From: Robiginitomaculum sp.
Lineage (GTDB): Bacteria > Pseudomonadota > Alphaproteobacteria > Caulobacterales > Maricaulaceae
Direction of reading: 5' to 3'
DNA: 64,000 nucleotides
Assembly (NCBI GenBank): GCA_016765135.1
Contig: JAESQN010000044.1
Location: 126,001 to 190,000 of the forward strand
Within the stretch, counting starts at the first letter, position 1, and every line of letters begins with the position of its first letter. Both the position numbers and the translations under genes were made by a program. Positions 55,985 to 57,132 of the stretch are shown here, one piece after another. The notes under the pieces were generated by a model. It did not search any database, was not told the DNA's origin, and was given only the letters and a program-made list of their open reading frames with translations.

Positions 55985-56845
55985 ATGAAGTTTTTTTCTA
56001 ACACTGGACGCATACTGCGCCCCGCAATTGCGGTGTTTGTCATTGGGCTTGTTCTCAGTGGATGTTCGACCTTCGGGCGCAAGCAAAAAGCCAAATTGGC
56101 CTATGTGGAACGCCCGGCAGAAACCTTGTACACAAATGCTTTAGAAAAAATGGATGCCACACGTTGGGCCGAGGCTATTTTGTTTTTTGATGAAGTGGAG
56201 CGTCAGCATCCGTTCTCCCGCTGGGCACGCCGTGCCATGTTGATGTCATCATTCGCCCATTATCAGTCAGGGGATTATGATGATGCTGTTGCAGGCGCAC
56301 AAAGGTTCATCAGCCTACACCCTGGTAGCGATTCGACACCCTATGCCTATTATCTCATCGCTATAAGCCATTACGAACAAATCTTTGATGTTGGACGCGA
56401 CCAAGGTACGACAGTGCTAGCAGAGTCGGCACTACAGCAAGTCGTGCGCCGCTACCCAGATTCGGATTATGCCCGCGATGCCCGGCTAAAACTGGAGCTG
56501 ACCCACGACCATTTGGCTGGTAAGGAAATGGATGTTGGGCGTTATTATTTACGCCAAGACCAGCATTTAGCGGCGATTGGTCGGTTCAAAAATGTTGTGA
56601 AAAAATACGATACCACGTCCCAGGTCGAAGAAGCCTTGCACCGCTTGGTGGAGGTCTATGTATCTTTGGGTTTGATCAATGAAGCCAAAAATGTGGGCTC
56701 GGTTTTGGGTTATAATTACCCAGGCGGTGAGTGGTATCATGATAGCTATACCTTGCTTTCAAAATACGGTGTTGATCTTCACACAGAAATCAAGGTCGAA
56801 CGCGAACGTGGTTATTGGCGACGGCTGAAAGAACGCTTGTTCTAG
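55985..56845 (+). CDS. bamD: outer membrane assembly lipoprotein BamD
   Basis: BamD is an essential part of the BAM complex that inserts outer-membrane proteins. The 286-residue lipoprotein starts at ATG 55985 and has a signal ending in the lipobox LVLSGC (Cys27). Several TPR units follow: LYTNALEKMDATRWAEAI, ALLSSFAHYQSGDYDDAV-like and AEALHRLVEVYVSLGL-like. The stop codon TAG (56843-56845) lies inside the left end of the downstream inverted-repeat element. An ATG at 55967 would place the signal further from the N-terminus. Confidence 0.93.
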   Translation: MKFFSNTGRILRPAIAVFVIGLVLSGCSTFGRKQKAKLAYVERPAETLYTNALEKMDATRWAEAILFFDEVERQHPFSRWARRAMLMSSFAHYQSGDYDDAVAGAQRFISLHPGSDSTPYAYYLIAISHYEQIFDVGRDQGTTVLAESALQQVVRRYPDSDYARDARLKLELTHDHLAGKEMDVGRYYLRQDQHLAAIGRFKNVVKKYDTTSQVEEALHRLVEVYVSLGLINEAKNVGSVLGYNYPGGEWYHDSYTLLSKYGVDLHTEIKVERERGYWRRLKERLF

Positions 56846-57132
56846 GGCCTGTGGACAATTAGGACAGGGCACTGGTTTTCGCCCATTTGTTCCAGGTTCG
56901 TACTGTTTGGCGCAGGACATGCCATAGTATATTCAAGCCAGATCAGTGCGAACCTGGAGCACATGGGCGAAAATCCCTCTTTTTAGTTGAAATGTTGTGG
57001 GACACCTGCCATTTTCCCGCTGATAGCCTACGAAAATGCTTGAATTAGCGAGCTAGTCCATCGCATTTCGTGAACTATCAGCAGCAAAATGGCAGGTGCC
57101 AGTGCCCTGTCTTAATTGTCCACAGGCCCTAG
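56842..57132. mobile_element. cloverleaf-shaped inverted-repeat element (MITE-like)
   Basis: This 291-bp non-coding element has outer inverted ends at 56842-56875 and 57099-57132 that match at 33 of 34 positions, beginning CTAGGGCCTGTGGACAATTA. Inside are two long hairpins: 56876-56905 with 56944-56973 (30 bases, one mismatch and two G-T pairs) and 57001-57039 with 57063-57100 (a few mismatches and one bulge). Folded, it forms a three-way junction. CTAG at each tip could be a target-site duplication. No transposase is encoded, so it would need an enzyme in trans. Confidence 0.8.

Follow-up and report, generated by a model that had tools for sequence, protein, structure and literature searches.

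A cloverleaf-shaped IS5-type MITE on the bamD stop codon belongs to an apparently undescribed class of elements in Proteobacteria

The window analysed here, a 64,000-nt stretch of a Robiginitomaculum sp. genome, carries between bamD and recN a 291-bp element that is almost certainly an IS5-type MITE inserted on the bamD stop codon. Its body is a conserved cloverleaf core, and the evidence strongly supports a phylum-wide class of elements built on this core, a class that has apparently gone undescribed hitherto. Numerous unrelated terminal repeats flank the same core, and two or more of these repeats belong to IS5-family insertion sequences (ISs). The window copy is a divergent member of this class: the tip words of its arms are kept, whereas CTAGGAG/CGACGC, the base-loop words seen in other members, have been lost. 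Taken as a whole, an IS5-moved MITE with a conserved cloverleaf core, whose fold would act as DNA, is in our view a highly probable explanation of the element.

An inverted-repeat search recovered the 34-bp outer ends of the original prediction, with 33 of the 34 positions paired (97% complementary), and also the two further long hairpins that had been placed between them, here of 98 and 96 nt (Table 1). Inner inverted repeats lie at 56876-56905/56944-56973 in arm A (30 nt, 90%) and at 57003-57035/57066-57098 in arm B (33 nt, 85%). The three-way junction proposed earlier proved to be four-way, a true cloverleaf, because a small TCCC...GGGA hairpin stands between the arms, giving a layout of 34 + 98 + 29 + 96 + 34 nt. 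This central hairpin is kept in relatives, at sizes from 7 to 29 nt across the family. The predicted RNA fold of the element reaches -186.3 kcal/mol compared to -85.6 +/- 5.1 for dinucleotide shuffles (z = -19.8), and the opposite strand has a z of -15.1 against such shuffles. As predicted, the bamD stop TAG falls inside the CTAG at one tip (56843-56845), 23 bases separate the element from recN, and no transposase is encoded, the 291 bp being too short for such a gene and consisting mostly of paired inverted repeats. No promoter or terminator was detected above chance within the element.

Table 1. Positions of the cloverleaf element, its parts and the adjacent genes in the window
Feature	Position	Strand	Remarks
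Whole cloverleaf element	56842..57132	+	291 bp, counting the outer C and G of CTAG
Stretch matched by covariance model R1	56843-57131		180 bits, at G000:C38:182843-183131
Outer stem, left side	56842..56875	+	inverted-repeat match
Terminal repeat, left, 19 nt from TA	56843-56861		TAGGGCCTGTGGACAATTA; common to IS5-family ISs
Outer stem, right side	57099..57132	-	terminal repeat 57113-57131
TA target duplication, left copy	56843..56844	.	with 56845, bamD stop TAG
TA target duplication, right copy	57130..57131	.	read from empty-site comparison
Arm A, 98-nt hairpin	56876..56973	+	
Arm A tip-loop word CGCAGG	56911-56916		kept
Arm A tip-loop word TTCAAG	56932-56937		kept
Small central hairpin TCCC...GGGA	56974..57002	+	95% of cells paired in family alignment (helix 6)
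Arm B, 96-nt hairpin	57003..57098	-	
Arm B tip words			those of arm A, on the other strand: GCGATGGAC...TTCAAGC
bamD 3' end	55997..56845	+	282-aa frame; stop TAG finished inside element boundary
recN start codon	57156..57158	+	23 nt 3' of element

The search for bamD-recN junctions without the element, which the original prediction had proposed, was successful in 12 relatives, these being the congeners whose junction was read; the bamD orthologues of 12 congeners are 78-91% identical. The gap from bamD to recN in the relatives read is 6-47 nt, with one of 159 nt. In five congeners (G010, G003, G012, G006 and G001) the empty site TTC-TAG is intact and recN starts 6-33 nt past bamD. The junction of the closest relative, G010, reads TTCTAG GGGTTTACGGGGGGACGCTAA ATG; the window has a TA on either side of the element and retains the recN context GGGGACGCTAA-ATG. 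This comparison shows that TA was duplicated and that the bamD stop codon was rebuilt. CTAG does stand at both element tips, as had been noted, but the four-base target duplication read from it did not hold, the duplicated part being TA. C-TA...TA-G flanks were present in 47 of 72 two-ended copies and other flanks in the remaining 25, in a tally whose search pattern included the TA. These 25 copies without C...G outside the TAs rule out a 4-bp CTAG duplication and indicate a duplication of TA with a preference for YTAR, mostly CTAG.

A search for other copies of the ends, also suggested in advance, showed that they occur many times elsewhere in the genus. A near-full copy was found at G013:C53 (84% over 237 nt), partial or decayed copies are present in the window's own genome (G000), and G003 contains elements of 163, 68 and 267 bp with the same terminal repeats. 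The element thus has the marks of a MITE, namely terminal inverted repeats shared with ISs, a target duplication with its empty site, multiple copies and no transposase, and we infer that it moved by transposition. Many lone terminal repeats without a partner were also seen near genes (L099-L110 and sites in G000), that in L100 just upstream of an apparent dnaN; such unpartnered repeats may be relics of decayed elements.

The earlier suggestion of an IS5-type mobile element was borne out by these empty sites and by the ends (TAGGGYCTGTGGACAWTTA), which match the ends of IS5-family ISs of 845-884 bp. Scanning ~85,000 species genomes with TAGGGYCTGTGGACAWTTA returned more than 118 loci; the matches listed were mostly from Alphaproteobacteria and included at least seven IS-sized two-ended elements in this size range. 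Viral contigs bearing this end were not found. The IS-sized elements that were translated encode overlapping transposase ORFs, and the partner transposases matched PF13340 DUF4096, PF01609/PF13586, DDE_Tnp_1 and NCBIfam NF033580 IS5_3 above cut-off, profile matches that place the partner in the IS5 family. In Roseibium marinum, a single 846-bp IS of this type, whose ends deviate from the pattern by one mismatch, occurs alongside 12 or more cloverleaf copies that share 96-99.6% identity. On the Sulfitobacter plasmid NZ_CP085169, an annotated IS5-family transposase gene accompanies an 845-bp IS with the same ends. In a Neisseria MAG, the IS (L154) and 166-bp one-armed MITEs (L260/L267) share GTCGAC in place of GTGGAC, showing that IS and MITE ends changed together and suggesting that transposase specificity and MITE ends shifted together. 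No matching IS5_3 transposase was found in the window's own genome, so the inserting partner is absent there. A second end type, TAGGGTCAGGACCYATTAA, likewise belongs to IS5-family ISs, which brings the terminal-repeat types matched to this family to two; for the plasmid terminal repeats GAGCGGTTCTAGG, TAGGAGCCTGTCTGAG, TAGAGCGTTTTCAGG and TAGGTAGTGTACTCAT no clear IS was identified.

Elements with these repeats form a modular series with no, one or two arms, of 40-68 bp, 163-166 bp and 268-291 bp, respectively, the minimal ones (L157, L170, L215, L095, L151 and L177) being two terminal repeats only. Outside Proteobacteria, L123 (Eremiobacterota) and L158 (Leptolyngbya) are two-ended elements with the same terminal repeat and without the two-armed core.

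Across Roseibium, Roseospira, Hellea, Kiloniellaceae, Rhizobiaceae and further lineages, elements of 267-291 bp take up a fold with an outer stem of ~31 bp, two arms of ~96 nt and a hairpin of 7-29 nt. We aligned 21 divergent alphaproteobacterial elements, with orientation assigned by arm similarity. The other cores in this alignment share 34-58% identity with that of the window; nevertheless, 91 consensus pairs hold in 90% of cells. Two-sided changes numbered 404, compared to 121 +/- 9 in shuffles and at most 106 when the partners were slid; relatedness is modelled by the sliding control and not by the shuffles, and the gap is large. The young copies of R. marinum have one-sided changes only, and two-sided changes accrue with divergence. 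This order fits selection on folded DNA and correction by template switching alike. Loops and stems were equally conserved within the TAGGGYCTG set (0.85 vs 0.85 bits), and the difference across ends is weak (0.63 vs 0.50 bits, p = 0.08); generally better conservation of loops than of stems is unsupported, and particular words alone stand out. Two cloverleaves contain extra hairpin-forming DNA, nested in an arm in one of 425 bp (L128:5918-6342) and at the centre in one of 386 bp (L218:85-470).

What the original prediction had missed is that this shape is the conserved hallmark of a very large class, which also occurs with unrelated ends. We surveyed genomes with a covariance model, R1, which was trained on this geometry and whose hits are therefore selected for it, with rough E-values. 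R1 matched in 36 of 387 sampled alphaproteobacterial genomes (32 of 264 genera) and in 10 of the 14 genomes of the window's genus. At E <= 1e-15, matches were present in 58 of 398 Pseudomonadota genomes, 36 of them outside Alphaproteobacteria, and 41 of the 232 sampled Pseudomonadota genera were R1-positive. Decayed and differently shaped elements are under-represented in this sample, which was drawn via intact ends or the model. Reverse-strand matches of known members reached about 100-145 bits, indicating that much of the R1 score is due to structure alone. By sequence, gamma-type relatives were found in Azotobacter, Pseudomonas aeruginosa and Halomonas replicons, and no gamma-type copy was found in E. 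coli genomes.

RNAfold topology and loop words served as checks outside R1. The MFE folds of 64 of 70 non-redundant elements had two arms and an outer stem, with arms of 97.4 +/- 4.7 nt and an outer stem of 30.3 +/- 2.3 bp in the folded elements. The R1-aligned set includes 42 elements whose ends, of 41 distinct sequences, have at least 7 mismatches in 19 positions to the reference end. The arm-loop word series AGGM...GCNG...CAAG...ACG was present in 27 of the 41 non-redundant far-end elements; in 50 shuffles, the count averaged 0.08 and never exceeded 1. Three elements (L333, L330 and L316) have core sequence in common with the Hellea elements and ends that are not. Collectively, these results strongly suggest that the core is conserved across the phylum.

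Two further members were seen in other settings. The window's own genome has a second cloverleaf-like element, with an outer stem and two arms (L323, G000:C21:16673-16969), whose ends (TAATATAGACCCACTTTG...) are unrelated to those of the window element. On the P. aeruginosa PA83 plasmid NZ_CP017294.1 (L366, 8550-8817), a gamma-type cloverleaf lies between co-directional genes, as in the window, its neighbours being an acyl-CoA dehydrogenase and a CaiB-type CoA-transferase.

The G-T pairs of the inner stems had been read in the original prediction as a sign of selection on folded RNA, a reading that was not upheld. At pairs predicted on both strands, mismatches were 33 G-T and 43 A-C, and in the union of both strands' pairs they were 108 G-T and 107 A-C. 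With G-T and A-C equally frequent, neither strand is favoured. Pairs predicted on one strand only gave 100 G-T vs 51 A-C, so that the apparent excess is an artefact of one-strand pair prediction which is gone in the symmetric test; the 198 G-T vs 88 A-C of the R1-aligned set probably reflect the same bias. The loop words of the two arms are identical and lie on opposite strands, which fits DNA symmetry better than a one-strand RNA. From pairing without strand bias and from the same words on opposite strands, we infer that the fold is important, or is preserved, at the DNA level, and our best guess is that the core has its role as folded DNA.

Template switching, which copies hairpin sides during replication, would produce paired changes by mutation alone and with no function. 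This process has been reported to create and maintain hairpins (PMC8794818), and it would account for the frequency of paired changes, for their lack of G-T bias and for young copies being one-sided while two-sided changes come with divergence. However, elements with unrelated ends have conserved unpaired words breaking their arms at constant positions, and the arms stay at ~97 nt, whereas correction alone would be expected to remove these breaks and allow arm lengths to drift. We regard template switching as a doubtful, if serious, contender. A structured RNA that is spread by the MITE and selected as a transcript, for example for nuclease protection or for regulating the transposase or neighbouring genes, is unlikely. 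Strong folding and covariation are in its favour, as is the slightly better folding of the A-to-B strand in most elements, a weak hint of strand preference, and the window copy is probably inside a transcript, judging from the short bamD-recN gaps in relatives. The lack of a G-T excess over A-C and the opposite-strand loop words speak against it, as do the absence of any Rfam match above gathering score and, weakly, a crude gene-context check with a crude ORF caller, in which no consistent orientation around the copies was seen.

It is improbable that the element is an ordinary MITE, that is, a chance internal deletion of one IS5-family IS with incidental hairpins. Such an origin would explain the IS5-family end match, the TA duplication, the lack of an ORF and the multiple copies, but not an architecture and loop words that are fixed across unrelated ends and across Alpha- and Gammaproteobacteria; moreover, no match to the core model was obtained at any IS locus examined. 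A local regulatory RNA or attenuator specific to bamD-recN, which the co-directional flanking genes and the stable fold could suggest, is refuted as the origin by the empty sites and dispersed copies, no relative read having the element there and copies and ends being found elsewhere, the opposite of the pattern (same place in relatives, no other copies) that the original prediction had linked to such an RNA.

In the explanation that we prefer, an IS5-moved MITE with a conserved cloverleaf core, an IS5-family transposase would move the non-autonomous element in trans via its 19-bp terminal repeats. Insertion would occur at the TA inside YTAR (mostly CTAG), with duplication of the TA. Here, the CTAG that holds the bamD stop was hit, and the empty sites show that the duplication restored TAG, leaving bamD intact, and that recN was displaced by ~290 bp downstream. 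The body is the class core, in which an outer stem of ~30 bp carries two ~97-nt arms and, between them, a small third hairpin. While single-stranded, as on the lagging strand, the element would form hairpins or a cruciform, and it is a real possibility, though one we hold at somewhat under even, that the transposase complex or a host factor binds these hairpins, or that they bring the ends together. If bamD and recN are co-transcribed, as is likely, the element would also fold as RNA and could affect recN expression, a possible secondary effect. More tentatively, there may be a superfamily of non-autonomous elements across Proteobacteria that is defined by its fold, in which the folded DNA cloverleaf with its fixed arm lengths and loop words is the selected unit and repeatedly swaps ends to parasitise different IS5-family transposases.

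MITEs are usually classed by their ends and seen as shrunken ISs with passenger interiors. In the class described here, it is the ends that change fully and the interior, with its fold and loop words, that endures, in more than 30 alphaproteobacterial genera and into Gammaproteobacteria. The question of function in the interiors of bacterial MITEs becomes experimentally addressable, and the class is a large natural data set with which to separate folded-DNA selection, RNA selection and template-switch correction. Genome annotation would probably miss such elements or misread them as regulatory RNAs. If the superfamily reading is true, the core would have a function of its own, for instance in binding, as folded ssDNA, a factor of the host or of the transposase. 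With its fold and not its ends as the defining trait, it would then represent its own kind of mobile element.

No earlier description of cloverleaf, cruciform or covarying bacterial MITEs, or of the end sequence, was found in Rfam or in the literature searched, whose coverage leaves out many subscription journals. NEMIS/Correia, RUP and IS870-type CTAG insertions are likewise small palindromic mobile repeats by genes, and IS870 makes a stop codon at CTAG; we know of no two-armed core with conserved loop words in any of them. A likeness of the arms to kink-turns or integron attC was considered and set aside. The IS5-family ISs (IS427-like, NF033580 IS5_3, such as those of R. marinum and NZ_CP085169) have the same 19-bp terminal repeats and TA/CTAG target as the elements described here, but differ in encoding a transposase and in having no match to the cloverleaf core. 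REP/REPIN sequences, including the CGTC-tagged REPs of Alphaproteobacteria, are also intergenic palindromes, often in inverted pairs near gene ends, but they are 20-40 bp long with 8-9-bp stems (CGTC type) and have no IS5-type ends (PMC3733652), and the length and IS5-type ends of the window element speak against membership in this group. MITEs such as QMITE2 of Coxiella burnetii are likewise non-coding, with terminal inverted repeats and transcripts predicted to be stably folded; in contrast, they have 7-9-bp duplications, and the passages on them in a review describe no conserved cloverleaf (PMC10969869). The R0 and R2 repeats of Pseudomonas fluorescens SBW25 are also MITE-like, with inverted ends that match IS ends of the same genome, but they are 89 and 110 bp long and form one hairpin each, from inverted repeats of 24 or 43 bp, and a conserved core with several arms is not described for them (PMC2718517). 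R200, a 320-bp repeat of the same strain whose structure is not given in that source (PMC2718517), might be a member of the cloverleaf class.
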